From positions 1 to 26,816 of the IMG/VR virus record IMGVR_UViG_3300031952_000114: a stretch of 26,816 bases of DNA, one strand, 5' to 3'. Below, one piece after another: positions 10,372-26,816 of the stretch. Source of the stretch: a virus. Every line of letters starts with the position of its first letter. The first letter of the stretch is position 1. The position numbers and the translations under genes are program-made. The notes below the pieces were generated by a model. It had not been told where the DNA came from, ran no database searches, and worked only from the letters and a program-made list of their open reading frames with translations.

Positions 10372-10625
10372 AGAGAAGTCTGCTCGCAGAGCTTCTGCCC
10401 GATGGCCGGGATATGGTGAAGGAGGCCTTCATCGCAGCGGCCGCAAGACTAGGGCTAGGAGCCATCACCCGAGTCGGTAAGGTCCTCGTTAAGAATCCCA
10501 TGAAGTCCGCCACTGCAGCTTTCGCGGCCAACGATGTGGCCAGCTCAGCATCCCGAATGGGTGATGTGGGAGCAGGCTCACGAAACCTAATGCGCAGCGT
10601 TGCGACACCCCCAGCCAATATGTGA
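10368..10625 (+). CDS. Unknown small protein, 85 aa
   Basis: It starts with GTG overlapping the previous stop (GTGA), with GAGGG a few nt upstream, so translation is coupled. The product is basic and Ala/Gly-rich, with an amphipathic N-terminal helix (MKRSLLAELLPDGRDMVKEA) and a low-complexity Ala/Ser/Gly C-terminus. It ends 7 nt before the next ATG. Its place in the operon suggests a minor head component. No family recognised. Confidence 0.55.
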   Translation: MKRSLLAELLPDGRDMVKEAFIAAAARLGLGAITRVGKVLVKNPMKSATAAFAANDVASSASRMGDVGAGSRNLMRSVATPPANM

Positions 10626-10632
10626 GGCCCCT

Positions 10633-11790
10633 ATGCAATACGCCTGGCTCGAAAAGCTATCATCTGAGGGTTATGTTCGGCCAGAGGCCAGGGAACAGAT
10701 CTATCGAGACTGCAGCAATCTGCTCAAGCACGCGAGCGCGCCCGCTTCAGGTGGGGGAGAAACCCTGCTTCAGGCAGTTGGTTCCGCACTTGGGAACTGG
10801 GCATCGAATATGGCGGGCAACGCAATAGAGAGCAAGATCCTCGGCTCGTTTCAGATGTCTGGCACCGTTAAAAAAATAAATAAGAACAAAGCCGCGATTC
10901 TAAGCCACCCCGACTTCTCGCAGTACCCTGAAAAAGCTGAGGCTAGATTTATGGATCTGGCAAAGATAGCGCCGACCATAGCGGCGCAAGAAGGTCGGGC
11001 AATAGATTTGGTGAAGGAAAAGCTGCACACTGGGTTTTCCTCCCAGGACATAGGCAACCTGGCTATTCTTCAGGCGATCTATACTTCCCAAGACCCTGCA
11101 TTCACATCTAAGGCAAATAAAGCCATGGAAAAAAAAGCGGGCGAGTCCCTTGGCGCAATGTATGCGGATGTGCTCTACATAGTTAAAGAGGCCGGCATAG
11201 CCGGAAGTCCCAGGCTAGGCGGAAGGTATCTAGCACCAGGAACCATGCTGAACGCCTTGAGAAACATGGCGATCGTAAGCTCCATCCCACTGCTTGCAGG
11301 GGTTGGGGCGGGAGCTGTTAAATCTTATGTCGCATCACGAGACAGTAAGGCGCTTGCTGGAAAGCTTCGAGACTCGTACGAACGTGCGCTACGAGATAGT
11401 GATTCTGAAACAAGCGACGACAAGAAGCTGCGGGAAGACCCCGCACGAGCTTACCAGGCGTTTCAGACCCTGGCTCATTTTGCCCCGCACGTTGCGATGC
11501 AGCCTACTGCGGCCCGATCTTTCATGAAGAGAATGGTTGGGTACAGTGAAGCAGGAGTTGGCATTGATGTCGACGGCCTGAAAGGGCTGAGCGAGATCGA
11601 GCGCAACATGTCGCAAACCAATCGAGGAGAGAGCCCCTTCTTCTCTGGATTTGAAACCGGTGCCGGTCTCTTTGGGCTGTCTAATACTTTGAGTGGGACG
11701 CTGAGCGATACCCTGTCCCCACTCCGGCAGCAGAGCAGGGAGATGGTTGCAAAGGACCTAGGGATATCTTTAGACAAGCATAAGAAGTGA
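10633..11790 (+). CDS. Unknown, probably virion protein with one hydrophobic segment, 385 aa
   Basis: I choose the ATG at 10633 (GAGG about 6 nt upstream) over an in-frame TTG 33 nt earlier that overlaps the previous gene. The N-terminus carries LLKHASAPASGGG, a K-x-A match followed by a flexible linker, so the first 35 residues or so may be removed. A helical middle follows. A hydrophobic stretch around residue 220 (MAIVSSIPLLAGVGAGAV) could span a membrane. The C-terminus is polar with repeated LSNTLSGTLSDTLS. Hydrophobic helices inside head proteins can mean DNA-ejection proteins, which is speculative here. It is not a recognisable portal. Confidence 0.6.
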   Translation: MQYAWLEKLSSEGYVRPEAREQIYRDCSNLLKHASAPASGGGETLLQAVGSALGNWASNMAGNAIESKILGSFQMSGTVKKINKNKAAILSHPDFSQYPEKAEARFMDLAKIAPTIAAQEGRAIDLVKEKLHTGFSSQDIGNLAILQAIYTSQDPAFTSKANKAMEKKAGESLGAMYADVLYIVKEAGIAGSPRLGGRYLAPGTMLNALRNMAIVSSIPLLAGVGAGAVKSYVASRDSKALAGKLRDSYERALRDSDSETSDDKKLREDPARAYQAFQTLAHFAPHVAMQPTAARSFMKRMVGYSEAGVGIDVDGLKGLSEIERNMSQTNRGESPFFSGFETGAGLFGLSNTLSGTLSDTLSPLRQQSREMVAKDLGISLDKHKK

Positions 11791-13800: not shown

Positions 13801-13834
13801 GTCATTGTTTCTAGAATAAACACCGGAGGATTGT

Positions 13835-14467
13835 ATGGCTACGTTACAAGAATTGCTCGAATCAGATTTCGGCGCATCCCAGACAAAAACCGCATCTGCT
13901 GGCAGAAGGCAGAACGATGACGAGATCGAAAAGCTCGCTGCAGAGCTGAATCTCGGGGACCTCTTCGGCAAGTCCGCCATGGACAAAGAAGAGGAAGAGG
14001 AAGAGGAAGAAAAAGAAGAGAAGAAGGCCGGCTTCCACGGGGGTCTGCCAGATCTCTACAACACTCTTTTCCCTTCGGATGGGGATTTGACCATCAAGAC
14101 TGCAGAGCAGGAAAAAAATGCCGCTGAGGAAAACCTCGGCTCTCGTGCATATGACTATTTCGGCGCCCAGTGGGACCGTCGTATCGAGAAGCTGGCTTCC
14201 GACGTCTTGACAGGCGGGGCCACCATCTCCTCTTCGACAGCTGCTGGCCATGACGGTGCGGTTCAGGAAGATTCCACCCCTCCACAGACTCAGGCCGACA
14301 ATAAGCCTGCAGGTGCCGGTTCTGGAATCAACACCAAAAGCACTGTGGTGACTAACAATGTCAAAGCGGAAAATGACGACGAGAGCGTCGGGCATTACGA
14401 GCAAAAGTCGGCAGCTATGAATCTTGCTATGCGCAAAGCATTCTTGATCTCGCAGCTCGAAGGCTGA
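13835..14467 (+). CDS. Acidic scaffold/core-like protein, 210 aa
   Basis: The ATG has GGAGG 6-7 nt upstream. The protein has a very acidic run near residues 50-65 (an almost pure Glu stretch) and low-complexity Ser/Thr/Asn in the C-terminal half. It holds at least six K-x-A sites: QTKTASAG, EIEKLAAEL, FGKSAMD, TIKTAEQ, RIEKLASDV and EQKSAAMN. Composition, position between protease and capsid genes, and density of possible cleavage sites fit a prohead core or scaffolding protein that is chopped up during maturation. The segment DDEIEKLAAEL is closely matched in the 137-aa protein two genes downstream, so they may share ancestry. Confidence 0.55.
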   Translation: MATLQELLESDFGASQTKTASAGRRQNDDEIEKLAAELNLGDLFGKSAMDKEEEEEEEEKEEKKAGFHGGLPDLYNTLFPSDGDLTIKTAEQEKNAAEENLGSRAYDYFGAQWDRRIEKLASDVLTGGATISSSTAAGHDGAVQEDSTPPQTQADNKPAGAGSGINTKSTVVTNNVKAENDDESVGHYEQKSAAMNLAMRKAFLISQLEG

Positions 14468-14516: not shown

Positions 14517-15236
14517 ATGCGTTTTGAAGATTTAAGCGCCGCGGACCAAAAGCTCTTAAACACGGATTTTGGCGGCCTTGAGAAGGTAGCTGCGGATCAA
14601 GTTGCGCAGGCTCAGGAAATGTACGAGATCGGCTTTTCCAAGCTCGCGTCTCAAATTGCCGATCAGCTCGACGCTGAGGCAGCCGCTGAGAAGGTGGCAG
14701 AGGACAACACTCTGGATCCAGAGTCTGAGAAACTTGCCGCATCACTCGGCGCCTTTATCGAGCGCGGACAGTTCGATGGCCTCCGCAAGCTCGGCAGCGA
14801 TCGGCATGGCAATGAGTGGCACTATCTTCTTCCCTTCGTAGAAGAAAAAGTGGCTGCAGCAGGCGGGATGGCTGCCGTCACAAACTTCGGCAAAAAGCTC
14901 AAAGGCTACGCTGGGGCAGCTGGTAGTAAGACTAAAGAGTGGGCTGGGGCAGCTGGTAGTAAGACTAAAGAGTACGCTGGGAAAGCTGGTGATAAGGCGA
15001 AGGAAGTGGGCGGCAAGGTCAAAGACTACCACAAAAGTATGGCCGACGATGCACGCGGGGCGGCTACTGGCCGTAATGCGTTCATGGACCACACGGGCGT
15101 AAAGGGCAATCTGAACGCAGGGCAACGCGCCGGTGCTGGTGGCCGGGCTGCATTGAAGGCATCGCCATACCTCGCAGCTGGAGCTGGAGCCGGTTTGGCA
15201 GCAGCTATGCGCAAAAAAGAAGAACCAGCAAGTTGA
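14517..15236 (+). CDS. Scaffold/core-like protein with LEA-like repeats, 239 aa
   Basis: The ATG at 14517 has AGGAG about 10 nt upstream. An ATG 5 nt earlier is in a frame that closes quickly. Residues 1-115 are acidic and helical with K-x-A sites (GLEKVAADQ, GFSKLASQI, SEKLAASL, EEKVAAAG). Residues 131-174 hold four 11-residue repeats of the type YAGAAGSKTKE, which resemble LEA-type amphipathic helices. The C-terminus is Gly/Ala-rich with a weakly hydrophobic stretch (YLAAGAGAGLAAAM) and a charged end. It is probably an internal head or core protein. No firm family match. Confidence 0.55.
   Translation: MRFEDLSAADQKLLNTDFGGLEKVAADQVAQAQEMYEIGFSKLASQIADQLDAEAAAEKVAEDNTLDPESEKLAASLGAFIERGQFDGLRKLGSDRHGNEWHYLLPFVEEKVAAAGGMAAVTNFGKKLKGYAGAAGSKTKEWAGAAGSKTKEYAGKAGDKAKEVGGKVKDYHKSMADDARGAATGRNAFMDHTGVKGNLNAGQRAGAGGRAALKASPYLAAGAGAGLAAAMRKKEEPAS
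14907..15005. repeat. Three 33-bp tandem repeats in the LEA-like gene
   Basis: Units at 14907-14939, 14940-14972 and 14973-15005 encode 11 residues each. The first two are almost identical in DNA, and the third has drifted. A fourth, much weaker unit may follow. Confidence 0.85.
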
Positions 15237-15249
15237 GTTTGTAATGCTT

Positions 15250-15276
15250 CCGGGGGCATGTGCCCCCGGCTTTCTT
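15250..15276 (+). terminator. GC-rich hairpin, weak terminator candidate
   Basis: CCGGGGGC (15250-15257) pairs with GCCCCCGG (15262-15269) around ATGT, followed by CTTTCTT. It lies between two scaffold-like genes. The T tract is interrupted, so partial termination or mRNA protection is likely. Confidence 0.5.
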
Positions 15277-15292
15277 CAAGGAGCAGGGGCGT

Positions 15293-15706
15293 ATGCGGTC
15301 GATAAACGATATGATTCGTGATGCCGATGAGATCTTCGAGAAGAGGGCCTCAAAGCAGGAAAACACCAAGAGCACTAAATCTAGTGGCTATTCGGACGAT
15401 GAGATCTTCAAGCTCGCCGAGGAGCTAAAGAGCCCGTCCAGGACCAGCGCAGCTCGTGAGAAACTTGCCGAGCATGATGGGGAGACCAAGATTGCGTTTA
15501 CCCTGCGAGAGCAGATAGCGCACTCTGCGGCAATCATTGACACGCTTTTGAACCTGGAGCAGCTGGAAAAGTTTGCTGCGCTTGAGAGTGCAGCCAAAGA
15601 AAAAGGCTTCAGCGACGCGCAGATCCAGAGCTTTTTCGAGAAGAATGCTTCGACTGCTGGGTTTCGCTCAATCCTTTCGGAAATACCAGCTCTATTCGGA
15701 AAGTGA
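15293..15706 (+). CDS. Scaffold/core-like protein, 137 aa
   Basis: I choose the ATG at 15293 because AAGGAG lies 9 nt upstream. An upstream in-frame start would fall inside the GC-rich hairpin. The protein is charged and helical. It contains five K-x-A matches: IFEKRASKQ, EIFKLAEEL, REKLAEHD, QLEKFAALE and FFEKNASTA. The block SDDEIFKLAEEL parallels DDEIEKLAAEL in the 210-aa protein upstream. The last 25 bases and those after the stop form the left copy of a 37-bp direct repeat. A head-core role is inferred from composition and position. Confidence 0.55.
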   Translation: MRSINDMIRDADEIFEKRASKQENTKSTKSSGYSDDEIFKLAEELKSPSRTSAAREKLAEHDGETKIAFTLREQIAHSAAIIDTLLNLEQLEKFAALESAAKEKGFSDAQIQSFFEKNASTAGFRSILSEIPALFGK

Positions 15707-15793: not shown

Positions 15794-16573
15794 ATGAACG
15801 ACTCATTCTGGGTTGGGTTTTTTAAGCACGCTTCGCCCAGGTGGATTAAAGAAATCCGAAAACTTAAACAAGTCCCTGAGGCTATGTCCGATAAGCTCAA
15901 AAGTTTGGGCCTTCCCCTGCGCGAAACTCGCCATATCGGCAGAGGGGGGAGTCAACTAGCAGATGAGGTGTTCCATCCAGTTCACGGGGTCTCTATTCGC
16001 AAAATACCTGTTGGGCACAACGCTGCAGACCGCGAAATACTAAAGGCAAGCGCGCGTGACAATATTGCTATGTGGGAGCATGCGCGTCACGCTACGGGGG
16101 GCAAGGGCCCGTTTGCTCACATTAAAGGCCATGAAGGACATGTGGCTTTTTATGAAAAGGCCATGCCATCTGCGAAAGACCGCGGTCCGCGGTTACGCCG
16201 TCTTATCCCCAAGGCTCTCGCTCTTGCGGAAACGCACAGCGCCATCCCAGGGCACAGTCGTCAAGAATGGCGCGCTTTGGATCTGTCTGTAAAACTGAAA
16301 AAAAAGAGCCGGGAAGAGGTTTCATTTAGCGGCAGAGACCAGGAGTACATAGATAAAATCAAAGAGAAGTATCCAGAGCTCCACGATTTGCGACACGGTA
16401 ATATCGTTGGTGGTAAAATAGTTGACATGGAGCCGGGTGGTAATCTTCGTATCCGACTCCACAGGCCTGATAATTATAAAAATCCTGTCAGCGAAGCTAA
16501 AAAGTACTTCGCTGCGGAGACGAGAGCAGCCCAAAAACAAAGGTCCGACTCTATTCGGAAAGTGAGCGAATGA
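15794..16573 (+). CDS. Kinase-like protein with FWVGF N-terminal tag, 259 aa
   Basis: I place the start at the second of two adjacent ATGs (GGGGGAAG about 6 nt upstream). The longer frame from 15707 begins in the repeat and has no ribosome-binding site. Residues 1-13 are the tag MNDSFWVGFFKHA. The rest resembles a small protein-kinase or aminoglycoside-kinase fold: a Gly-rich loop GRGGSQLADEVF (49-60), a candidate ATP lysine K70 in VSIRKIP, a hinge-like VAFYEKAM, and a catalytic-loop-like HDLRHGNIV with D198 and N203 at the usual five-residue spacing, then D211 in KIVDMEP. The C-lobe ends about 48 residues later, which is short. It lies between 37-bp direct repeats. Kinase activity is an inference. 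Confidence 0.5.
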   Translation: MNDSFWVGFFKHASPRWIKEIRKLKQVPEAMSDKLKSLGLPLRETRHIGRGGSQLADEVFHPVHGVSIRKIPVGHNAADREILKASARDNIAMWEHARHATGGKGPFAHIKGHEGHVAFYEKAMPSAKDRGPRLRRLIPKALALAETHSAIPGHSRQEWRALDLSVKLKKKSREEVSFSGRDQEYIDKIKEKYPELHDLRHGNIVGGKIVDMEPGGNLRIRLHRPDNYKNPVSEAKKYFAAETRAAQKQRSDSIRKVSE

Positions 16574-16585
16574 CTGTGCAAAACC
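16549..16585 (+). repeat. Right copy of the 37-bp direct repeat
   Basis: It differs from 15690-15726 at three positions. It encodes the last residues of the kinase-like protein and the first codons of the 303-aa protein, whose ATG at 16570 lies within it. Confidence 0.85.
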
Positions 16586-17481
16586 TCCTGATAGGTGATC
16601 AGCAGAAGCTGGCGTTTCTTAGTGGCTTTATGAGAAAACTCGTAAGCAAGGGAAAGCCGCTTCAAAAAATCGTCAAGGGGTCAGGGAAAGTCAGGAAGAT
16701 GGCTCCTGCAAGAGGGGGCAAACGCGTTTCAAAAAGCAACGCTGTGCCTGCTGGCTTTGCCGAGGGCACTAAATCCCCCAATGCACAGCGAGCTTGGGAC
16801 GCCTATCGCGAAAAGGCTATGACCTCAGGTGGTGGGGCCGACTCACTGCTTCTTTACCCTGCGCAGTTTGCTGCCGAAAAAATGTTGGGTAAAGAGCGGG
16901 TACGTAATAGAATGTGGAAAGCTGTTGGGGCGCCAGCGCTAAGAGCCGACACTGCTGTCGGGAGAGTCCTGGAAAAGACGCCGCTCGTAGGGAAGAAACT
17001 TTTTCGCGTGAAAGAGATGGTTCCTTGGGGCAAAGGACTTCATCGTGAGGTAGAGCGCTCTTCGGCTTTGGGGCCTCTCACGAAGGCTAGAGATATTGCT
17101 GCGCCCATCATTGTCGGCGCAGGTTTAGAGAAAGGCGTCAGGGCAATGACCAAGAAAAAAGATTCCGAGGATGGCCAGCACATAAGAGAAAAAGCCGCTT
17201 CAGTAATGCTTCATCTCCATCAGGAGAACAGGGGGCATGAGAAGCGTGCAGATGCCCTACGCCTTCTCTACAAGCAAGTAGAGCTAGGATACGGACAGCT
17301 GCCGCAATCTTTCGGCGAGCTAAATGAGAAATTAGCTTCGCTAGTAAAAGAGGATTTAGGTGTGTTGGAGAAGGCATTGGAATTAGCTGGGGGCAACCTA
17401 AAGTTTGGCGAGTTGGGATCGAAAGATAACTCCATAGCCGGGACCCCTGCAGAAAAATTCCAAGCCGACCTCCTGGACTGA
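16570..17481 (+). CDS. Basic head/core-like protein, 303 aa
   Basis: The ATG overlaps the previous stop (ATGA). The protein is strongly basic in its first 60 residues. It begins with a degenerate version of the tag (KLAFLSGFMRKLV), and further K-x-A matches occur at IREKAASV, GHEKRADAL and NEKLASLV. A weak hydrophobic patch (DIAAPIIVGAGLEKGV) lies near residue 185. The C-terminus is acidic. The gene would directly follow the 137-aa gene if the kinase-like insert were removed. The basic N-terminus suggests DNA contact inside the head. No family recognised. Confidence 0.55.
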   Translation: MTVQNLLIGDQQKLAFLSGFMRKLVSKGKPLQKIVKGSGKVRKMAPARGGKRVSKSNAVPAGFAEGTKSPNAQRAWDAYREKAMTSGGGADSLLLYPAQFAAEKMLGKERVRNRMWKAVGAPALRADTAVGRVLEKTPLVGKKLFRVKEMVPWGKGLHREVERSSALGPLTKARDIAAPIIVGAGLEKGVRAMTKKKDSEDGQHIREKAASVMLHLHQENRGHEKRADALRLLYKQVELGYGQLPQSFGELNEKLASLVKEDLGVLEKALELAGGNLKFGELGSKDNSIAGTPAEKFQADLLD

Positions 17482-17511
17482 TCGAAAACAACTTTTTTTG
17501 GAGGGGCAGAG

Positions 17512-18003
17512 ATGGTCGTCGCTATCTCGGACAGCAGAATCGTTCCCATCACTGAGGACTTGACCACAGAAGTGTCAACCCTAGAAATCTTGCGTGGTCT
17601 TGAGACCATGTACCGCGTGGACAAGCCCTTGGCTGTCCCCGGAACCACCGCACTTCTTATGGGTGAGTTTGCGGTACTGAATTCGGCCGGTAAGGCGGAG
17701 CGCGCAGGCGCTACACCTGTGGGCCAGACCTACCTTGTCTTTGCAGGTACCGATCGCTTTGATGTCAAGGCAACCGGACAAGTGACCCTCGTTATGAGTT
17801 GGCCAATCCAGGCGAAGACCACACGCTACAACACCGGCGGATCTTACGCGGTTGGGGATCTCCTCACCGTTAAGAACCTTGGTGGTGGTCAATCGCAGCT
17901 TACACCAGCGGCAACAACCGAATTCGCGGTTGCACGCGTGCTGGAAGTTGGAACAGGTTATCTCGTGTACGAGACTCTAGGCGGCGGCTCTACAGAGCTA
18001 TAA
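17512..18003 (+). CDS. Putative capsid decoration/accessory protein, 163 aa
   Basis: The ATG follows TTGGAGGGGC. The product is almost all beta-type, Gly/Thr/Val-rich, without cysteines (for example TDRFDVKATGQVTLVMSW and GGSYAVGDLLTVKNLGGG). The second half looks like a small beta-barrel. A small beta-rich protein directly upstream of the major capsid gene, with 55 nt between them, is a common arrangement for head decoration or stabilisation proteins. The assignment rests on this context and composition. It lacks the K-x-A motif, which suits a protein added to the outside after maturation. Confidence 0.55.
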   Translation: MVVAISDSRIVPITEDLTTEVSTLEILRGLETMYRVDKPLAVPGTTALLMGEFAVLNSAGKAERAGATPVGQTYLVFAGTDRFDVKATGQVTLVMSWPIQAKTTRYNTGGSYAVGDLLTVKNLGGGQSQLTPAATTEFAVARVLEVGTGYLVYETLGGGSTEL

Positions 18004-18058
18004 CCCCTGACCGAAGTCGCACTTGTTTGAAACACTTTTGAACATCAAGGAGATTTAG

Positions 18059-18970
18059 ATGTACGAAGGATTGGATAGCCAGACGTTTAACAATCTCTTC
18101 ATTGAGAGATTGGACACCGTCGAAGGGCTACAAAAAACAGCCGCTGCCGGCGCAGCATTTGTTCGATCAAAGATTCGTGAGATCGGTTTCGGGCGTCGCA
18201 TTCTGCCGCCAGAATCCGTATCCCGCGCAGATCTAACTCGCTCGACCGATCATGACACTCTGATCAAGATCGTCGATATCGAGCATGAGTCCAAGGCTAT
18301 GGCGGTCAACTTCGCTTCAACAGCGAACGAGCGCTATATCCAAGGCAAGCGTTATGCGCTGCCGTTCTTCAAGATCGAGTCCGAGAAATTCGTCAAGTCT
18401 GAAGGCGAACTCTTGGCCTATGATTACCCAATCACGAAAGTGATTGAGGAGAACTCAGTCAAGGACATTCAAAAAGTCGAAGATATCAAGTTCATCGAAT
18501 ATGCAGAAGCTGCGATCACGATCACAGGCAAGCGTATTATCTCTGCATCTACTTCGGTAGACCGCAAAGAGATGAACAGTCTCTTCAAGATGATCGACTT
18601 CGATCAGCTGACTGTTGGTTGCACGCTCATGAACACCGTCGACTATGACGATTACATGATCCAGCCTGCAACTGAAATCGGCTCGCCCTTGGCGTCGGAA
18701 ATCACTGTTGATGGCTACAAGTATCAGACGATTCTGAATCGTCGCCTTGTTGTCACCAACAAGCACGATATCCTGCTCCCTGGCGAAATCTGGGCTTTCA
18801 CTGAGCCAGCCTATCTCGGTAACTTCTTTATCCTGAATGACGTCAAGTTCTGGATCAAGAAAGAAGCCGATTTGGTTGTTTGGAAGACCTGGGAATATAT
18901 TGCCGAAGGCTTCGGTAATATCAAGTCGATCGCTAAGATCGAACTCGATGTTCCAAACCCAATTCCGTAA
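18059..18970 (+). CDS. Major capsid protein (HK97 fold)
   Basis: It forms the shell of the head. A strong AAGGAG lies about 7 nt upstream of the ATG, the best ribosome-binding site in the window, as expected for the most abundant protein. At 303 aa, the layout fits phage major capsid proteins: a helical N-arm, a long-loop region rich in charged residues (AVNFASTANERYIQGKRYALP), a spine helix region (ITKVIEENSVKDIQKVEDIKF), and a C-terminal A-domain-like part ending in strands (KHDILLPGEIWAFTEP...NDVKFWIKKEADLVVWKTW). GLQKTAAAG at residues 23-31 is a likely processing site; cleavage after A28 would remove a short delta-like segment. A hairpin follows the gene. Confidence 0.85.
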   Translation: MYEGLDSQTFNNLFIERLDTVEGLQKTAAAGAAFVRSKIREIGFGRRILPPESVSRADLTRSTDHDTLIKIVDIEHESKAMAVNFASTANERYIQGKRYALPFFKIESEKFVKSEGELLAYDYPITKVIEENSVKDIQKVEDIKFIEYAEAAITITGKRIISASTSVDRKEMNSLFKMIDFDQLTVGCTLMNTVDYDDYMIQPATEIGSPLASEITVDGYKYQTILNRRLVVTNKHDILLPGEIWAFTEPAYLGNFFILNDVKFWIKKEADLVVWKTWEYIAEGFGNIKSIAKIELDVPNPIP

Positions 18971-18977
18971 GTTTTTG

Positions 18978-19017
18978 GGGCGAGCTATCGTTCGGCAACG
19001 GCCGGTAGCTCGCCCTT
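18978..19017 (+). terminator. Hairpin after the major capsid gene
   Basis: GGGCGAGCTA (18978-18987) pairs with TAGCTCGCCC (19006-19015), ten perfect pairs, with only two Ts after it. It may protect or partly terminate the capsid mRNA. Confidence 0.55.
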
Positions 19018-19035
19018 CAATTGTGAGGAAGTTTT

Positions 19036-19581
19036 ATGAAGACAGAGGATCAGCCGCTTGAACTTTATCGGGTGACCAATATCACCGCCCGAGCTCCCCG
19101 CATTGATCCGGGCACTCAATTAGATCTTCGCACTGCCGCCGAGGCCAAAGGCCATGCGATCTCTTTTCGCGGTGCAAGAGGCGGCGCAATCCTGTTAGCA
19201 CCAGGCGAAAGCCAGGTCACTAATGATATTACCGGCAGCCTGAGGAAGCTGGAACAAAGACTTCTCGTGTCGATCGTAAACCTGGACATAAACGCAGAAG
19301 CACCGCCGGCACCTGCAGCTCCAGTTGTGGCAGCTTTGCCTGTCGAGGTCGCCCCTCCGGTTGTAGCAGCTGTGCCCGAGAAGGTCAGCCCTCCTGTGGT
19401 AGCTAAGCCTCCGGTAAAAGCCCCCGTAGCATTGCCAAAAACGGGCAGCGGGCCGGCACCAGTTGTAAAGAAAGCACCGGCAGCTCCTGCAGTCGCAGTT
19501 TCCGCAGCTCCCGTACCAGAAGCGACTACGCCAGCAGCTCCTGAAGTTGCGGTCGATAACAGCAACGACGAGATCATCTAG
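19036..19581 (+). CDS. Virion-associated paralogue 1 with Pro/Ala-rich tail, 181 aa
   Basis: The ATG has GAGGAAG upstream. Residues 8-82 form a compact domain: YRVTNITARAPRIDPGTQLD, then LRTAAEAKGHAISFRG and a helix before LLVSIVNLD. The same pattern recurs in the next gene. Residues 90-175 are a Pro/Ala/Val-rich stalk with repeated APVVA-type units, likely extended. The end is acidic. The location directly after the major capsid gene suggests a head-surface or head-tail interface protein, with the stalk pointing outward. No named family recognised. Confidence 0.6.
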   Translation: MKTEDQPLELYRVTNITARAPRIDPGTQLDLRTAAEAKGHAISFRGARGGAILLAPGESQVTNDITGSLRKLEQRLLVSIVNLDINAEAPPAPAAPVVAALPVEVAPPVVAAVPEKVSPPVVAKPPVKAPVALPKTGSGPAPVVKKAPAAPAVAVSAAPVPEATTPAAPEVAVDNSNDEII

Positions 19582-19635
19582 TTCGTGCGGACTTTGTATC
19601 GAGCGCCGTACGCCAGTTTCCCAATAGGAGTCCCT

Positions 19636-20181
19636 ATGCAAAAGCAGCAGCCGCAGCAGCAGTTCCAGTACAAGTTAACGAATACGACGGTTAAACCCCC
19701 CAAGCGCGATCCAAAAACCGGCGTCGATCTTCGCACGATGCTAGAGAAGGTCGGGCATGTTGTTTCCTTTCGAGGGAGAAACAACGAGTCCGTGATGGTT
19801 GGGCAGAACAAGTCCCACATCCTCTACGAGCTGACTGAAGGCATTATCGGCCTTCAGCGCGGTGGGCATGTGAGCGTCGAGAGAATCGACGATGTCATGA
19901 CGCTGCTGGCTCAACACACCAACAAGCCTGCAGCTCGGGCAACCGCACCGCAAGCAGCCGTTGCGGATAACCCAATGGCTAAGGAACCCGATTCGAGTGA
20001 GGCTTCTGACTACGCGGAAATACCAAGCTCTGAGCGAATGGCGAGCGCCATCGAGATGGGGCTGGACGATCACAAGCAAAAGGGCGGAAGCGAGTACGAG
20101 GGGGCCACCAATCCAGATGGTGAGCCTAATTTTCTCGTAACTGCCAGTAAAAAAATATCCCGTAAGGCTCGTCAAAGATAA
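19636..20181 (+). CDS. Virion-associated paralogue 2, 181 aa
   Basis: I choose the ATG at 19636 (AGGAG 5 nt upstream). An upstream GTG in frame has no ribosome-binding site. After a Gln-rich leader (MQKQQPQQQFQY), residues 12-85 repeat the domain of the previous gene: KLTNTTVKPPKRDPKTGVDL, then LRTMLEKVGHVVSFRG and a last strand GGHVSVERIDD. The C-terminal half differs: it is polar and charged rather than Pro/Ala-rich, ending in a basic KKISRKARQR. A duplicated gene that has specialised is likely. A role on the head or neck is inferred from its position. Confidence 0.6.
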   Translation: MQKQQPQQQFQYKLTNTTVKPPKRDPKTGVDLRTMLEKVGHVVSFRGRNNESVMVGQNKSHILYELTEGIIGLQRGGHVSVERIDDVMTLLAQHTNKPAARATAPQAAVADNPMAKEPDSSEASDYAEIPSSERMASAIEMGLDDHKQKGGSEYEGATNPDGEPNFLVTASKKISRKARQR

Positions 20182-20190
20182 GAGGCTACT

Positions 20191-20664
20191 ATGCCGACGT
20201 ACCAACAAGATTGGGTCACTGGGCGTCAAGAGAAGGCGAAGCGTTATCTTCGCCTTTTTTTGCGTGATACGCCGGAGCTTAACCGCTTGATCCGCAAAGA
20301 AGAGTCCGACGACGAGATGCTTCTCTTCTGCTTGGAGATGACGATCTCTGACTGGAACAGCACCACGCCCTTGATAAGGCAGGTGGATATCGGGAACTAT
20401 CCCAGTCTCTACCTGCTCATGCATGGCTCCGTGATCCAGGTAATGAAGTCCCAGGGGATATTTCAGTCGCGTAACGAGCTCAATTACTCGGCAGGCGGGT
20501 CGAGCTTTATCCGTGCGAATAAGACGAACTACTACATGGCCTGGATGACCAATTTCGTAAACGACTACGAAGTCAAGAAGCGAAACATGAAAATGCAACT
20601 CAATATCGCTGGTGGTTGGGGTGGGGTCAATTCTGAATACGATAGGATAGGCTATGCTTGGTAA
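20191..20664 (+). CDS. Putative neck/head-tail connector protein, 157 aa
   Basis: The ATG has AGAGG about 7 nt upstream. The protein is helical at the N-terminus (basic and Leu-rich, RYLRLFLRDTPELNRLIRKE) and mixed later (ISDWNSTTPLIRQVDIGNYP). It ends with an aromatic/Gly-rich tail. Its position after the capsid-associated genes, and a size usual for adaptor proteins, point to head completion or head-tail joining. An intrinsic-terminator structure lies inside the frame at codons 15-24. The next gene overlaps its end by 11 nt. No sequence family recognised. Confidence 0.5.
   Translation: MPTYQQDWVTGRQEKAKRYLRLFLRDTPELNRLIRKEESDDEMLLFCLEMTISDWNSTTPLIRQVDIGNYPSLYLLMHGSVIQVMKSQGIFQSRNELNYSAGGSSFIRANKTNYYMAWMTNFVNDYEVKKRNMKMQLNIAGGWGGVNSEYDRIGYAW
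20233..20261 (+). terminator. Intrinsic terminator structure inside a coding region
   Basis: AAGGCGAAG (20233-20241) pairs perfectly with CTTCGCCTT (20248-20256) around a six-base loop, and Ts run to 20261. It meets all standard criteria but lies 40 nt inside the 157-aa gene. Confidence 0.65.
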
Positions 20665-20830
20665 GTTCTGGGAGGGCTTCTTCAAAAAAGCAGAGGAAGC
20701 AGATATCAGAAAGCTAGAGGCTCAGGGCAATGCGCCGATGCTCGCCCGAACCATCAGCAAAGCCGGACCAAGAGCAGACGACCTTACCGCTGAGAGTGAC
20801 CGCGCTAAATTCGAGGTAGCCAGAGGGTAA
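20654..20830 (+). CDS. Short protein with FW-GF tag, 58 aa
   Basis: The ATG lies inside the end of the previous gene, overlapping by 11 nt, with AGGAT/AGG-rich sequence just upstream. It begins MLGKFWEGFFKKAEEAD, a version of the FWVGF tag with its K-x-A end. The remaining 40 residues are charged, without hydrophobic core or cysteines, and probably disordered (EAQGNAPMLARTISKAGPRA). It seems to be little more than a tag and a tail. A peptide incorporated into the virion or used as an assembly aid is possible. Confidence 0.6.
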   Translation: MLGKFWEGFFKKAEEADIRKLEAQGNAPMLARTISKAGPRADDLTAESDRAKFEVARG

Positions 20831-20832
20831 TC

Positions 20833-21240
20833 GTGATTGATATAGGCATAACAACTGAAGAATTCATCGAAGCGTTTCGTCAGGCCTGCGAGGATATGGT
20901 ACAGAAGGTGATCGAGAAGAACTCGGACTACACGGGTGACTCGGCAAACCCTTTCGAGACCTTCGAGGCTTGCGAGGCTCTTCGTATTTGTTCTGCCGAG
21001 ACGGGCCTTCTTACCCGGATCGTAGAAAAAGTAAAACGGGTAGACGGGCTGCTAAAAAAAGGCTCTCGTCTTGTGCACGACGAGCCCATTCAGGAGACCT
21101 GCCTCGACATCGCCAACCAAGCCATAATCCTGCTTATCCGGCAGAATTTCGTCGCACGACTTGCCGCTATAGCCCCCATCGACGGTAGTAAGTTTGTTCT
21201 TTCCGATATGCCCCCACCAATCAACTTCAAAGGGCAGTGA
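20833..21240 (+). CDS. DUF1599-like (MazG-like) nucleotide-modification-associated protein, 135 aa
   Basis: The GTG start (GAGGGT upstream) follows the previous stop by 2 nt. The pattern fits the DUF1599 family of small helical proteins: KNSDYTGDSANPFETF (29-44), AETGLLTRIVEKVKRVDGLL (about 56-75), then VHDEPIQETCLDIANQAIIL with the acidic residues that in related all-alpha nucleotide-binding folds hold a metal ion. A role in nucleotide turnover or base modification would be expected from the family. Its place between neck genes is odd, as such genes usually lie with replication genes. Expressed late, it may be packaged or act on the nucleotide pool. Confidence 0.6.
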   Translation: MIDIGITTEEFIEAFRQACEDMVQKVIEKNSDYTGDSANPFETFEACEALRICSAETGLLTRIVEKVKRVDGLLKKGSRLVHDEPIQETCLDIANQAIILLIRQNFVARLAAIAPIDGSKFVLSDMPPPINFKGQ

Positions 21241-21243
21241 CAT

Positions 21244-22110
21244 ATGGCCGGAGTGCTAAGAAGAATCCAGTTCGAGAGTATTGCTGTGACCATACTGTCG
21301 ACCGGGCAGATACCTCGCATTCTCATCAAATGGAAGCTGGAGCCAACCTCGCAAAAGCTATCCAACCTCAAATTCTTTGTGGATCGCGGGGAGAGCCCTA
21401 CGGAGATGCACCAGCTCAACGCGTCACCAATTGCTGCCAAAGGCCTGGATGAATACGTCGACCATACGGCAAACGTAACGGACCTCGATAAGATTTACTA
21501 CTTCCGTGTCCGTGCGGTGGAGTTCCAGGGCGCAACGCCGGTTCAGACATTTACCTCCCCAAGCACGACCTGGGATGGCGACCTGGATTTGGTGGGGCTC
21601 TACATCGTTGAGGAACACCTCTTTGCGCACCGCTGGGTCTACGGTGTGCCGGTCATGATTTACAAGAAGCGTCGCGATGGGGTCTATTGCCCAGAGTGCT
21701 GGGATGATGTTCTGCAGCGTGTGGCTAAAAGCAATTGCCGGACCTGTTACGGCACTGGGCGCCTTGATGGTTTCTACGCCCCAATCGAAGCGTGGATGAG
21801 CCTTGAACCCGATCCAAAGATGGAGCAGGTCGTCGACTGGGGAAAGCGGCAGCAGGGGCAGACGGACATCCAGTTCACCAACTACCCTTTGCTGTCGGTA
21901 GATGACCTCATTGTGGAGCTCAAACCGAATAAATTCTGGAAGGTCTCCATTGTGAGGGCTCCTGAGAAAAACAGGACTGTAATACTTCAGCTCTGTAGGC
22001 TCGATGCGGTAAACCCATCGGACGTCGAATACAAGATCCCTGTGCCTGATGACAGGCGCCGCATTTTGCTCGAAGAGTCAGATCAGCGAGAGAAGGAAAG
22101 GGAATTTTGA
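21244..22110 (+). CDS. Virion protein with fibronectin-III-like domain and zinc knuckle, 288 aa
   Basis: The ATG is 3 nt after the previous stop. Residues 10-100 look like a fibronectin type III fold (SIAVTILSTGQIPRILIKW, then DKIYYFRVRAVEFQGATPVQ). Residues 145-180 hold two CxxC pairs, YCPECWDD and NCRTCYGTG, typical of a zinc ribbon. The C-terminal part is beta-rich (SVDDLIVELKPNKFWKVSIV), followed by a charged helix. It precedes tagged and connector genes on the way to the tail sheath, so a neck or tail-completion role is likely. Domain calls are from pattern only; the precise family is unknown. Confidence 0.55.
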   Translation: MAGVLRRIQFESIAVTILSTGQIPRILIKWKLEPTSQKLSNLKFFVDRGESPTEMHQLNASPIAAKGLDEYVDHTANVTDLDKIYYFRVRAVEFQGATPVQTFTSPSTTWDGDLDLVGLYIVEEHLFAHRWVYGVPVMIYKKRRDGVYCPECWDDVLQRVAKSNCRTCYGTGRLDGFYAPIEAWMSLEPDPKMEQVVDWGKRQQGQTDIQFTNYPLLSVDDLIVELKPNKFWKVSIVRAPEKNRTVILQLCRLDAVNPSDVEYKIPVPDDRRRILLEESDQREKEREF

Positions 22111-22403
22111 TGCATGCATTTTGGGTTGGATTCGAAAAGCGTGCCGGAAGCCTGCTGGGGGCGATGCCTGGTATAACCTCAGGGCTTCGCACCACAAAGT
22201 CGTTTGGCAAGATCCGGTCTGCACAGCCTAAGTCGGGGATATCCATCGGCGCTCGGTCTTTGGCCAGCCCCATTCCGGGACCGCCCACAGCGAGTGCGGT
22301 AAAGGCCGGGATTCCTGGGGCAACCGCGTCCTCCGTAGGGCGTAATGGCATACCTAAGCCGCCTATGCAGTACGGGGCAGGCCTGCAAGGGAGCTACATA
22401 TGA
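22110..22403 (+). CDS. Short Gly/Pro-rich protein with FWVGF tag, 97 aa
   Basis: The ATG overlaps the previous stop by 1 nt (TGATG), with AAAGGGA upstream. It starts MHAFWVGFEKRAGSLLG, the clearest copy of the tag with a K-x-A end. The body is Gly/Pro/Ser/Ala-rich and probably disordered (SLASPIPGPPTASAVKAG), with no predicted domain. Its stop overlaps the next ATG. A cleavable targeting leader on a disordered cargo or spacer is the simplest reading, but the role is unknown. Confidence 0.6.
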   Translation: MHAFWVGFEKRAGSLLGAMPGITSGLRTTKSFGKIRSAQPKSGISIGARSLASPIPGPPTASAVKAGIPGATASSVGRNGIPKPPMQYGAGLQGSYI

Positions 22404-22561
22404 GGTCCAAGGATCTGGTAGGAATGGTCAAATACGGGTCTTATGCGGACGCATTTAAAGACGTGGCCAAGCAGATGGAAAAGCAGCAAAAAGTGGTCGT
22501 AAAGAAGCTCAAGAAAGATGTCCAAAAGAGATCCGCACCCGTAACCCCGCCCAAACTTTGA
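22400..22561 (+). CDS. Small basic coiled-coil-like protein, 53 aa
   Basis: The ATG overlaps the previous stop (ATGA), so translation is coupled. The product is a single charged helix, rich in Lys and Gln in the middle (DVAKQMEKQQKVVVKKLKKD), with a Pro-rich tail. The heptad-like spacing of hydrophobic residues suggests a short coiled coil. It ends 12 nt before a strong terminator. It has no tag and no K-x-A match. Function unknown. Confidence 0.5.
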   Translation: MRSKDLVGMVKYGSYADAFKDVAKQMEKQQKVVVKKLKKDVQKRSAPVTPPKL

Positions 22562-22616
22562 TTAAGCACGACAGGGACACGGTGTCCCTTTTTTTGGCCC
22601 CACCTAAACTTTGATT
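22551..22616. repeat. 13-bp direct repeat flanking a terminator
   Basis: CCAAACTTTGATT (22551-22563) and CTAAACTTTGATT (22604-22616) differ at one position and bracket the terminator at 22573-22595. The left copy includes the end of the 53-aa gene. Confidence 0.7.
22573..22595 (+). terminator. Intrinsic terminator within the structural operon
   Basis: AGGGACA pairs with TGTCCCT (22573-22579 and 22583-22589) around CGG, followed by a T run to 22595. It separates the neck genes from the connector, sheath and tube genes. Confidence 0.7.
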
Positions 22617-22627
22617 GGATATGACCG

Positions 22628-23290
22628 ATGGGAGCAGATGACAGGATAAACCCTTTGCTCGACGGCGCTGACACCGGCTATGGCATCCGGCGGCAGTCCA
22701 TAGCAAAAGGCAGCAAGATCCCGAATGTAGCTATATTTGTGAAGCGAACCGCGCTAGAATTTCTGCAGATCCTCTTTTCGCAAAGAGAGGTGGGATCCTT
22801 ACATTACGATCAGGACCCAGGCAGAAGCGATATCATCATTTCGGACGTCCACGCGGTAGACCTGAAGACTGTGGGCGCCCGTCCAGCAATCATCGCCATT
22901 CGTGGCCCCCTATCCTTTCAAGGGATGGGTCTTGGGGGTAATGCCCTTGAGAAACGGGACACGCGAACCGGCAAGTACACCTTCAATGACATCCTCACCG
23001 GGTCAGTGGCTTTAAACTGTATAAGTCGAGAAGGCTTGGAAGCTGAACAGATTGGGCACCTAGTGTTCAACTCGTTTAAGTACTTCCAGCCGGTCTTGCG
23101 TAAGCTCGGTTTTCTTTCGATAAAAAGCCTAAACATCGGTGGTGAGGCGCTCATTGAGCAAGAGGGCGGGGACGACAAGACCTACCTTGTGCCCATCCTT
23201 CTTACCGTACAAGTGCAGGACAGATGGACACTGGATTCGAATGTTGAGAAGCGACTGTCGCAGATTCTGATCGAAACGCTCATCGATTGA
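22628..23290 (+). CDS. Putative tail terminator/connector protein, 220 aa
   Basis: The ATG at 22628 has only a weak TTGGAT-type site. An ATG 7 nt earlier is in a frame that closes at once. The protein mixes helices (FVKRTALEFLQILFSQ, LVFNSFKYFQPVLRKLGFL) and strands (LVPILLTVQVQDRWTL), ending in a helix. The gene directly before the sheath gene in myoviruses often encodes a tail terminator or tail-completion protein, and the alpha/beta order here is compatible. It follows a terminator, so its expression must depend on read-through or a promoter I cannot see clearly. Confidence 0.5.
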   Translation: MGADDRINPLLDGADTGYGIRRQSIAKGSKIPNVAIFVKRTALEFLQILFSQREVGSLHYDQDPGRSDIIISDVHAVDLKTVGARPAIIAIRGPLSFQGMGLGGNALEKRDTRTGKYTFNDILTGSVALNCISREGLEAEQIGHLVFNSFKYFQPVLRKLGFLSIKSLNIGGEALIEQEGGDDKTYLVPILLTVQVQDRWTLDSNVEKRLSQILIETLID

Positions 23291-23304
23291 AAAGGAGATT
23301 TTCA

Positions 23305-25776
23305 ATGGCTTATCGTCGTCCTGGAGTGACCGTCGTACAGGAGTTCGTGGACCTTGCCCCCGCTCTTGCAGCGTTTACGCTGCCCAGTGTTTCCGTGGGG
23401 CCGGCTTACCAGCTGGTTGATAACGATGCACTTGGCAACTACATCGGAACCCTGCAAGCCTATGCTTATGCTTCACTGTTAGGAGGGGCGCTTGTCGACC
23501 TCTCTTTTACTGCTGAAGATGAGATGTTCCCCGCGACCAAAAAAGAGATCTCGGCTGTCATCAAAAACACCGTGGTAGAGATTTTGGCCCAACAGGCTAC
23601 AGGCTCGGGTGTTGGAGATGTGCTGTCAGATGTGACCCTCAATCAGTTTGCTAACACCCTTGCTGGCGACACCGTAGTCGTCGAAGAAGTGCTGGCGCTG
23701 ACCATAGTCGCCGCGCAGGTCAACGGTATCTCGACCGACACTGCTGGCCAGCGTAACCGCTTGACCGCAGGCACTGCGAATCAGTTTGCAAATGTCAAAA
23801 GCGGAGACAGCGTAGTCGTTACTGCCGGAACCAACGCAGTTGTGGCAACGTTTACCGTCATCGCCAAGCTGTCGAGTACGATCATTGTACTCAGCGCCAA
23901 CGTCAATGATGGTGTCGGGCCTTCAACGGACACAGCGTTCTCTATTACTGGGAACCGCGGTACGATCAACCAAGGCAACTATAAGGTTAAGACCGTCACT
24001 GACGAAAATAACCTTATACTCGAAACACCCTTCCCTGATACCCCGGAAGCGCCGCTCACCTACTCCATCCGTAGGGCCGTAGGGACCGTGACCTTGGTTC
24101 ACTTGGCAGCACCTGGCAACGGCTTCACCGCCGATGAGTCCGTGGTGACTCTGCCTGCCTCTCTGCAAGTCGTGATTGAGGCAATCCCATACGATATTCT
24201 CACGGGCGCTGTGCAGGCATCCTACCGTGCTCTGCGGACGGATCTTGCAGCAGAAGTTCGCGCGTATGACAACCTTACCGGCGTTGTCGCAGTCATGGGT
24301 GTAGGCAACATCAGCCCGCAAAACCCACTTGGCTATGGCCTCTCGATCATGCTCCAGAACACCGTGACGCCTGTCCATGGTCTGGGCTTGGACGCGAATG
24401 CAGTGGTGGATGAGATCTTATCCTACACGGCAGCTACTGAGGTCTTGCAAACCTCTGACATGTACGCGATCGCGCCCTTGTCACAAAGCCCTGTGGTTCA
24501 CACTCTTTTCAAAAACCACGTCGATCAACTTTCTCAGCCTGCGCGTAAGCAGGAGCGAGTTGTCCTCATCAGCAGCCTTTTGAAGACTGTGCTGGTTCTG
24601 CAGGAGGAGTCGACAACTGTCACCACCGCAAACGGCTCACGGATCATCGTTGCGACCCAAGTCGACGGTAGCGGAAGTTTCGTTGCAAGCCCTGCGACGC
24701 TGAACGACGCCACTCTCGATCAGTTCTTGAACGTGAACGTCGGCGACTCGGTTGTAGTTATCGGCGGCACTAACGTGACCCCCGGAACTTATGCTGTAGC
24801 GACCAAAACAAGCGTGAACGTGCTGATTCTCGCAAGCAATTTTATCACCTCCGGCACCCCGACCGACATCCAGTACTATATCATCCGCCGTGATGGTATC
24901 AGCGTAGGCGGCGCAATCCTCTACGATCGCAACGCATCGTTCATCAGCAATGGTGTCAGCTCTGGTCACTACCTGTCTATCCTTAGCGGGTCGTTAAAAG
25001 GCCGCTACAAGGTTGCCTCCGTGCAGAACGAGAAGCAGCTCACTCTTGCCCCAGCGATTCCTGGCGTCGTTACTCTCGCCACACTGATCAACTATCAGAT
25101 GGACCGGGATATGACGAAGACCGAGCAAGCAGCGAATGTTGCCGGCTACAGCGAAGCCTTCGCTGATCGCCGCGTCGTGCACTGCTGGCCCGATGTGCTC
25201 AAGGCTCCTGTTGGGCAGACGACTGAGAAGGTTCCAGGGTTCTACGGCTGCTGCTCAGTTGCTGGATTGACCACGGGCCTCCCTACTCAGCAAGGTTTTA
25301 CCAACCTTCTGATCTCGGGCTTCCTTGGCTTCGATCACTCAACCAAGTATTTCACCGAAGCGCAGCTTGATACCATTGCAGGCGGCGGCACTATGGTGTT
25401 TGCACAAGAGAGTCCAGATACTCCACTCTTCGTGCGCCATCAGCTGACAACCGATCGTTCTTCGATCAAGTTCCAGGAATTCAGCGTGACCAAAAACGTT
25501 GACTTCATTGCCAAGCACTTGCGAGACACCTATCGGGCCAATATCGGGCAGTTCAACATCATCGACACGACCCTGGACACGCTCAAGACCATCGCCGAAG
25601 GGGAGATTGTCTTCTTCCGAGACACCACTCGCATCCCGCGCTTTGGGGGCGTGGTTCGGAGCGGCAAACTCTCGAGCATCTCGGAGTCTGTCACCCAGAT
25701 TGATACTGTGGACATGCGGTTCAAGTTCAGCATTCCGATCCCGCTCAATAACATTGACATCGTCGTCGAAGTGTAA
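23305..25776 (+). CDS. Tail sheath protein with inserted repeat domains
   Basis: It forms the contractile outer tail tube. I choose the ATG at 23305, with AAGGAG 7-8 nt upstream. The protein is 823 aa, longer than many sheaths. The N-terminus MAYRRPGVTVVQEFVDLAPAL and the C-terminal 250 residues fit sheath proteins (RRVVHCWPDVL, VAGLTTGLPTQQGFTNLLI, FVRHQLTTD, then a final strand FSIPIPLNNIDIVVEV). Three copies of a beta-repeat interrupt it: a short one near residues 104-128, one near 152-240, and one near 460-590. The full copies share QFxNVxxGDSVVVxxGTN. The inserts probably decorate the outer surface. It is followed 14 nt later by the tube gene. Confidence 0.8.
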   Translation: MAYRRPGVTVVQEFVDLAPALAAFTLPSVSVGPAYQLVDNDALGNYIGTLQAYAYASLLGGALVDLSFTAEDEMFPATKKEISAVIKNTVVEILAQQATGSGVGDVLSDVTLNQFANTLAGDTVVVEEVLALTIVAAQVNGISTDTAGQRNRLTAGTANQFANVKSGDSVVVTAGTNAVVATFTVIAKLSSTIIVLSANVNDGVGPSTDTAFSITGNRGTINQGNYKVKTVTDENNLILETPFPDTPEAPLTYSIRRAVGTVTLVHLAAPGNGFTADESVVTLPASLQVVIEAIPYDILTGAVQASYRALRTDLAAEVRAYDNLTGVVAVMGVGNISPQNPLGYGLSIMLQNTVTPVHGLGLDANAVVDEILSYTAATEVLQTSDMYAIAPLSQSPVVHTLFKNHVDQLSQPARKQERVVLISSLLKTVLVLQEESTTVTTANGSRIIVATQVDGSGSFVASPATLNDATLDQFLNVNVGDSVVVIGGTNVTPGTYAVATKTSVNVLILASNFITSGTPTDIQYYIIRRDGISVGGAILYDRNASFISNGVSSGHYLSILSGSLKGRYKVASVQNEKQLTLAPAIPGVVTLATLINYQMDRDMTKTEQAANVAGYSEAFADRRVVHCWPDVLKAPVGQTTEKVPGFYGCCSVAGLTTGLPTQQGFTNLLISGFLGFDHSTKYFTEAQLDTIAGGGTMVFAQESPDTPLFVRHQLTTDRSSIKFQEFSVTKNVDFIAKHLRDTYRANIGQFNIIDTTLDTLKTIAEGEIVFFRDTTRIPRFGGVVRSGKLSSISESVTQIDTVDMRFKFSIPIPLNNIDIVVEV

Positions 25777-25790
25777 GGAGGCATACACAC

Positions 25791-26498
25791 ATGGCTACAA
25801 CGAGCTATAGCAACTGGGACTTCTACAATTTCAGGGTACAGCAAGAGCTGGTTGGGGGTCAGTTTGTGAGCGCCGAGTCCACACTCGTCGCCGCAGGACC
25901 TCCTTCACTTACCAACGCTGGTAAAGACGGATCGGAAGTCGCGTACCCAATCGGCCTGCTTGAGAGTGTGGGGCTCCAGCAGAACCGTCAGCTGCAGCGA
26001 ATCTTTGAGATCGGCTCCACCCGGAGCTACTTTATCCCAGGGCGCACGGTCGGCTCACTTTCGATTGGCCGGACGTTCTACTTCGGACCAAGCCTCCTGC
26101 GTGTCCTCTATGCTTACTACCGCAGTAACCCAGGTACCTTTGACCTGGGCACTAATGCACCTGGTGCGAGCGTGACGTCACCAGAAGGAAGGCGGGATGT
26201 TCCGGATCCCAATGCAGCCCTGCTGGATACTTTCAGTGTTGGGGACCTCAAAGAGCTGAAGCGTAACCCTGGTTACGGCTATCTGCTTATCGACTTGGCT
26301 TCGGACCTGTTCTCGCAGCCAACGGGAATGGCTATCTACTTCAAGGATGCCAACACCGATACCGTCGGCGGTTTTTATCTGGAAGAGGCCTATGTCCAGG
26401 GGCACCAGATGACAATCTCGAGTGGTTCTGTGCTGGTCATGGAAGGTGTTTCGATGCAATATGATCGGATTGTTCCGCTCAACATCGACGCCTTCTAA
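25791..26498 (+). CDS. Tail tube protein
   Basis: It forms the inner rigid tube through which DNA passes. The ATG has AAGGAGG about 9 nt upstream. At 235 aa it is beta-rich (SLSIGRTFYFGPSLLRVLYAY), with a long loop after about residue 110 and a final set of strands (VLVMEGVSMQYDRIVPLNIDAF). Direct placement after the sheath gene is the standard order in myoviruses, which is the main support, together with composition and size. A strong terminator follows, consistent with a sheath-tube transcript. The exact family of the tube was not confirmed by search. Confidence 0.75.
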   Translation: MATTSYSNWDFYNFRVQQELVGGQFVSAESTLVAAGPPSLTNAGKDGSEVAYPIGLLESVGLQQNRQLQRIFEIGSTRSYFIPGRTVGSLSIGRTFYFGPSLLRVLYAYYRSNPGTFDLGTNAPGASVTSPEGRRDVPDPNAALLDTFSVGDLKELKRNPGYGYLLIDLASDLFSQPTGMAIYFKDANTDTVGGFYLEEAYVQGHQMTISSGSVLVMEGVSMQYDRIVPLNIDAF

Positions 26499-26533
26499 GA
26501 AGACCTTTAGTGTAGTGTTTGCGCTATTATATG

Positions 26534-26571
26534 ACGTAACAGTGCTGCTATGCTGCACTGTTACGTTTTTC
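26534..26571 (+). terminator. Strong intrinsic terminator after the tail tube gene
   Basis: ACGTAACAGTGC (26534-26545) pairs perfectly with GCACTGTTACGT (26555-26566) around a nine-base loop, followed by TTTTT. Twelve base pairs make it the strongest hairpin in the window. Confidence 0.85.
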
Positions 26572-26592
26572 CTTTAGCCACAGAGGTATAAA

Positions 26593-26793
26593 ATGGTTTC
26601 TGATTCGTTTTGGGTAGGATTTGAGAAAAGAGCTGTATGGGGGTCAAGTAAGGAGAAGATGGAGGGTGACAAGCCAAAAACATCCACCAAAGTCCCTTCG
26701 ATACTAGCTCCAGTTTACGCACTCCACGCCGCCCTAAAAAATATTTCGCTATTGGATCAACATGGCGAACACAGTAAACATAAAAAGGACTAG
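26593..26793 (+). CDS. Short protein with FWVGF tag, 66 aa
   Basis: The ATG has AGAGG about 7 nt upstream. It begins MVSDSFWVGFEKRAVWG, a full copy of the tag. After a charged linker (SKEKMEGDKPKTSTK), a hydrophobic helix follows (SILAPVYALHAALKNISLL), and a His/Lys-rich end completes it. It is not a typical tail assembly chaperone, which would be expected near this point. The gene lies after the terminator and is followed within 3 nt by another tagged frame, so the two may be a pair of cargo genes. Confidence 0.6.
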   Translation: MVSDSFWVGFEKRAVWGSSKEKMEGDKPKTSTKVPSILAPVYALHAALKNISLLDQHGEHSKHKKD

Positions 26794-26796
26794 CTG

Positions 26797-26816
26797 ATGC
26801 AGCATTTCTGGGTAGG
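26797..26816 (+). CDS. Partial gene beginning with the FWVG tag
   Basis: An ATG 3 nt after the previous stop, with AAAGGAC upstream, opens a frame reading MQHFWVG before the window ends. The tag at the expected position supports a real gene start. Nothing else can be said about the product. Confidence 0.5.

Follow-up and report, generated by a model that had tools for sequence, protein, structure and literature searches.

The internal proteins Ip1-3 of T-even phages have only an N-terminal leader in common (PMC12373910), and in T4 IPIII residues 4 and 7 are responsible for targeting and residues 8 and 10 for processing (PMC9026906). Two proteins of phage SPN3US, gp53 and gp54, likewise have an identical 15-residue N-terminus (PMC5694885). 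The gp21-type proteases described in these papers cut after Glu, within L/I-x-E in T4 (PMC9026906) and A-x-E in SPN3US (PMC5694885). This study deals with another N-terminal leader, M(x0-4)F-[W]-x-G-F-[E]-K-x-A, which starts five genes of a 26.8-kb virus record from IMG/VR (IMGVR_UViG_3300031952_000114; the whole stretch of 26,816 nucleotides is called the window here). We propose, with a probability of about 0.82 and on the basis of sequence comparisons, that this leader combines a capsid-targeting sequence with a prohead-protease site of a new K-x-A specificity.

A leader shared by unrelated proteins

The five near-identical N-terminal peptides which the initial annotation had noticed in the window are all present (Table 1), and the leader recurs across 53 related loci retrieved with protease and capsid queries, mostly 3-5 residues past the start codon. 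When all IMG/VR contigs were scanned for DNA encoding FWxGFEKxA and the N-terminal cases were counted by hand, 62 of 71 distinct frames carried the motif at the N-terminus; after dropping seven frames with fewer than 30 residues downstream, the proportion was 57 of 64. An equal frequency at internal positions, which the initial annotation had named as evidence against its idea, was thus not found. Five of the seven internal frames sit directly behind another K-x-A. Most of the other leader-bearing contigs are short fragments. Over the full length of eight relative contigs, the core F-x-x-[GA]-F-x-[KR]-x-A was N-terminal 51 times versus ~0.06 times in shuffled proteins. The 257 Gb of cellular genomes gave 51 pattern matches, about the number expected by chance according to our own estimate, and none of the 51 was an ATG-started leader of an open reading frame of at least 30 amino acids (aa). 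The reversed pattern gave no match in 18 records. A chance origin of the leader is ruled out by the shuffles, the reversed pattern and the cellular-genome control. Two contigs with 62-64% identical capsid proteins have 16 and 11 N-terminal copies, mostly without W (e.g. MFALGFQKIA and MSFRDGFDKTA), and the essential core is therefore F-x-x-G-F-x-K-x-A. The leader occurs in a family of large tailed phages, most of them uncultured, and is both lineage-restricted and portable. No cultured phage bearing it turned up in the phage collection that was searched. A literature search for the motif letters, whose coverage left out most subscription journals, gave no match.

The initial view that the proteins behind the leader are unrelated was borne out, since the bodies from related phage contigs fell into at least 85 families without mutual similarity at E 1e-3 when the leader was removed. 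The alignment of 82 representatives gave the consensus MxxFWxGFEKxA, in which M1, F4, K10 and A12 are invariant, followed by no consensus. Pfam domains of an SNF2-type helicase, NUDIX, ATP-dependent DNA ligase and DUF5661 were found in tagged bodies, as were glycine-zipper segments; a thioredoxin match was under its Pfam cut-off and the majority of the bodies had no Pfam identification. Short-frame matches in L067, L081, L090, L093 and L101 and a nuclease match in L079 were judged to be due to chance. The bodies are basic: their median net charge per 100 residues is +7.9, whereas genes matched for size have +1.5 (p = 2e-12) and neighbours on the same strand 0.0 (p = 7e-9).

The leader codons vary freely at third positions, as was noted originally in favour of the peptide being kept at the protein level. 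Recent copying of one start region is ruled out by these varied codons together with the diverged cores. The putative worn copy in the protein encoded at 16570 also proved to be real: its 77%-identical homologue in the close relative G009 has an intact LEKIA-FLAGFLRKA. The designation of the 15794 protein as kinase-like is weakly supported, by a weak kinase-like Gly-rich loop in its body. This protein has one near-identical homologue in IMG/VR, its gene is an insertion when compared with G009, and alignment-free folding gave a mean predicted local distance difference test (pLDDT) score of 36.

The tagged genes 20654, 22110 and 26593 are located between or beside the capsid, sheath and tube genes (the tail sheath gene, phrog_279, is at 23287), and the minus strand of the window carries DNA polymerase A and RNase HII. 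The association of tagged proteins with virion genes, claimed in the initial annotation, holds for these cases, but in other contigs tagged genes also adjoin the RNA polymerase gene or lie well away from the virion operon. Tagged genes outside this operon, the protease-site half of the tag and the internal tandem-site copies described below are features that the initial annotation had not noticed.

The K-x-A motif in the head module

The last residues of the leader (hydrophobic-x-K-x-A) are common to the capsid propeptide, the protease flanks and the scaffold-like proteins, and the leader end was therefore read as a protease site. The profile of the capsid gene at 18059 matched phage G Gp27 (6wkk), a solved HK97-fold tailed-phage capsid protein, with E = 1.7e-15. 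Residues K26 and A28 of the capsid propeptide are invariant in all 41 sequences compared, the most distant being ~35% identical. The K-x-A sites of the window protease, at residues 27-31 and 220-224, flank the catalytic domain, and sites at both ends of this domain were found in most relatives, including phage G, Vibrio phage D69 and Salmonella phage Arash. Of the cultured phages for which a virion proteome exists, Arash is the closest, and it has a homologous capsid protein, protease and K-x-A head module. Its K-x-A sites include LVKEA in gp226 and LTKQA and LEKVA in gp222. Residues H71 and S122 are among the invariant columns of the protease in nine relatives and are assumed, by analogy, to be catalytic; a search of solved structures with the protease profile gave chance matches only.

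The K-x-A-rich head module spans 9451-15706 and includes the protease gene. K-x-A is the most over-represented pattern in proteins of head assembly, though not in tail proteins. When residue pairs at spacings 1-4 were ranked, it came first in the head module of the window and in those of Arash and D69, and it was not among the top pairs in the remaining window genes. In 14 relatives, 404 hydrophobic-x-K-x-A motifs were counted upstream of and including the capsid gene versus 95 expected, and 80 versus 53 expected downstream of it; the z-score of 21 overstates independence because the genomes are related. The sites of these relatives prefer L, F or M at P5, E at P4, T, V or I at P2 and S or A at P1'. 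This placement is the layout expected for a prohead protease that would cut the shell protein, the scaffold and itself. A K-x-A specificity would be new, the gp21-type proteases mentioned above being Glu-directed.

Some relatives have a protease (L005 in G002, G003:59400, L011 and L012) that is interrupted right after the conserved Ser-Met-Gly-Cys by an intein-like insertion, in which Hint-like and LAGLIDADG-like motifs were seen by eye; in G002 and G003 the protease domain resumes ~350-380 residues later. The scaffold-like protein 13835-14467 has a glutamate run (EEEEEEEEKEEKK) between its K-x-A motifs, and a long EAEV repeat array is encoded in D69 by the gene just behind the capsid gene (L056, 22852-23514).

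Table 1 Tagged genes and genes of the K-x-A-containing head proteins in the window
Feature	Coordinates	Strand	Properties
Head-module protein	9451..10371	+	10 K-x-A motifs
Head-module protein	10600..11790	+	5 K-x-A motifs
Head maturation (prohead) protease	11800..13800	+	phrog_18299, E = 2e-9; LEKTA 11878-11892, LLKVA 12457-12471
Acidic scaffold/core-like protein	13835..14467	+	9 K-x-A motifs
Scaffold/core-like protein	14517..15236	+	5 K-x-A motifs
Scaffold/core-like protein	15260..15706	+	6 K-x-A motifs
Tagged gene 1	15794..16573	+	259 aa; leader MNDSFWVGFFKHA at 15794-15832
303-aa protein	16570..17481	+	Worn leader QQKLA-FLSGFMRKL at 16600-16641
Major capsid protein	18059..18970	+	phrog_2522; 28-residue propeptide 18059-18142 ending LQKTA
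Tagged gene 2	20654..20830	+	58 aa; leader MLGKFWEGFFKKA at 20654-20692
Tagged gene 3	22110..22403	+	97 aa; leader MHAFWVGFEKRA at 22110-22145
Tagged gene 4	26593..26793	+	66 aa; leader MVSDSFWVGFEKRA at 26593-26634
Tagged gene 5	26797..26816	+	MQHFWVG..., truncated by window end; G009 counterpart MQHFWVGFEKRAG...

Predicted head loading and its alternatives

Thirteen leaders were found inside longer frames, and seven of them are directly preceded by K-x-A (P = 2e-13), namely by HEKSA, LTKKA, RTKTA, EEKTA, VEKKA, ITKKA or LEKIA. These proteins resemble two pieces of cargo with a leader between them and a predicted cut site on either side of it, and the 303-aa protein is a decayed case of these putative tandem sites. 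The leader also marks a boundary between genomes. The window and G009 are ~94.5% identical over 19477-26634 and the homology ends at 26634, where the Ala codon of the leader is completed; for gene 26593 the identity is 98% just upstream, 89% across the FWVGFEKRA codons and 29% beyond. Other pairs have the upstream DNA and leader in common and different bodies, or the leader and body in common and different upstream DNA. As the homology stops at the last codon of the leader and the bodies are swapped, the leader can be regarded as a seam for cargo exchange.

The layout of the leader matches that of the T4 capsid-targeting sequence, and we therefore propose that F-[W]-x-G-F serves for targeting and that the cut follows K-x-A. 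During assembly of the prohead core, the F-[W]-x-G-F part would bind the core or the inner shell and bring the protein inside. The head maturation protease encoded by gene 11800 would cut after [L/F/M]-x-K-x-A and free the mature cargo; the capsid propeptide, the flanks of the protease itself and the scaffold proteins would be cut concurrently. The predicted cargo consists largely of small basic proteins together with some enzymes; it would remain with the DNA and would probably be injected into the host. We infer the binding partner, the cleavage after Ala, the packaging and the injection from the comparisons described here. The initial suggestion of an address tag comparable to the T4 capsid-targeting sequences is supported by the K-x-A motif shared with the capsid propeptide and protease boundaries, by the basic, exchangeable bodies and by an orthologue proven to be in virions, all of which point to predicted head loading.

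This orthologue is the helicase gp217 of Arash, an abundant virion protein which was detected by mass spectrometry with 38 unique peptides and 1148 spectra (PMC10585845). The tagged helicase G001:13961, which starts with MHSFWLGFEKRA ahead of the aligned helicase domain, is orthologous to gp217 (38% over 476 columns), which has no leader. The tagged helicase thus has an experimentally proven virion protein in its family, although the phage concerned packages this protein leaderless. The FWxGFxKxA leader is absent from Arash and from the 36 kb of D69 that were read. The helicase gene and a second tagged gene of G001 come after the RNA polymerase gene, and the Arash counterparts of this polymerase are among its most abundant virion proteins (PMC10585845).

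Possible stages of leader gain or loss are seen in the helicase family (L100, G002:72641, G003:50841), which includes FLAAFEKRA, a worn FLKKFAALKK and, preceded by a glycine-rich N-terminal domain that begins with MADEKTA, an internal GFYKAA. The β and β′ subunits of RNA polymerase are separate virion proteins in Arash (gp206, gp216) and form one chain of ~2000 aa in leader-bearing phages (G001:7532-13558, G004:22467, G005:13235), with ~500 extra residues at the junction in G002 and G003. Several Arash virion proteins encoded outside the head module (L058-L061: gp95, gp97, gp100, gp206, gp242) have K-x-A near the N-terminus. Their short ends, such as MPKSA of gp206 and MEKQA of gp100, as well as MSLHKLA and GFIKRA, are possibly a shorter version of this address.

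Several observations weigh against the proposed targeting and cleavage. The virion evidence comes from an untagged orthologue, and since Arash packages the helicase without the leader, helicase packaging does not always need it. The K-x-A cutting is predicted and its specificity would be new, unlike that of the Glu-directed gp21-type proteases. A fold search with the protease model gave no match at E <= 0.001, with human cytomegalovirus protease 1nkk at a template modelling (TM) score of 0.40. Depletion of K-x-A sites within the bodies is expected, since the bodies would need to survive the protease, but it was weak (17 observed vs 24.5 expected with one protein per family, about p = 0.07).

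The leader might alternatively be a protease-site extension only, the proteins entering the head by their own affinity while the leader keeps them inactive or permits their release on maturation. The K-x-A end is indeed conserved best and fits the motif of the protease, the basic bodies could, for example, bind DNA or the core, and the Arash helicase gets into virions without a leader. We nevertheless consider this unlikely: in the 82 unrelated proteins, the conservation of F, G and F before K-x-A almost reaches that of the site and is higher than at scaffold sites, so that the first half of the leader probably has a second function. An address for the tail, the baseplate or a membrane instead of the head interior is very improbable. 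The neighbourhood of genes 20654, 22110 and 26593 and the glycine zippers in some bodies would suit it, whereas the head-protease motif at the leader end, the small K-x-A excess downstream of the capsid gene and the tagged genes next to the RNA polymerase gene or far from the operon would not. We give hardly any credence to the view that the shared peptide is a by-product of recombination, by which a common ribosome-binding and start region was copied ahead of new genes with no function of the peptide. Body swaps with retained upstream DNA are what such copying would produce; however, residues are kept while synonymous positions vary, tag-plus-body pairs occur with different upstream DNA, and distant relatives hold the core amid other surrounding residues.

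Beyond the capsid-targeting reading, we rather favour a wider picture, in which a non-T4 lineage of large myoviruses would have evolved its own packaging address, read by the head core and erased by an Ala-directed K-x-A prohead protease. The leader would serve as a docking seam for swapped injected proteins, internal copies between two K-x-A sites would let one precursor deliver two cargo proteins, and the injected proteome could then be listed from sequence. Head-carried, injected phage proteins are normally learned phage by phage via mass spectrometry. If the proposal is true, a readable address would list the injected proteins of uncultured phages directly and would flag many candidate host-takeover and counter-defence proteins. 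It would also give a new, short tag by which proteins could be brought into phage heads, and extend head-maturation proteases past the glutamate-directed specificity of T4, phiKZ and SPN3US.

Comparison with known systems

Encapsulin cargo-loading peptides are short peptides which bring unlike proteins into an HK97-fold shell, as is proposed here, but they are usually C-terminal and are not removed by a protease. Arash and the Vibrio phages D69, D148 and D181 resemble the window in the head module: their capsid protein and protease are homologous, and scaffold-like proteins rich in K-x-A are arranged in a similar order. The inner-head and ejection proteins of phiKZ, 201phi2-1 and SPN3US have N-terminal propeptides which are cut off by the head protease (PMC5694885). 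Most of these propeptides exceed 100 residues, and the cut follows a Glu, in contrast to the 12-14 residues and the K-x-A end of the leader described here.

Similarly to the T4 and T-even internal proteins (IPI-III, Alt), a short N-terminal leader is the sole similarity among unrelated small basic proteins (PMC9026906, PMC12373910), and the bodies differ between close relatives as they do at the T-even internal-protein loci (PMC12373910). The T4 capsid-targeting sequences end at their own prohead-protease site, with targeting residues before the processing residues (PMC9026906), and the same order is found here with predicted cleavage. The differences concern the sequence, F-[W]-x-G-F-E-K-x-A, the predicted cut after K-x-A instead of L/I-x-E, the body families (at least 85, with helicase, NUDIX, DNA ligase and thioredoxin domains among them) and the internal copies behind a second K-x-A. 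As the leader does not contain the L/I-x-E of T4, it would work like the targeting of T4 internal proteins without being a member of that family.
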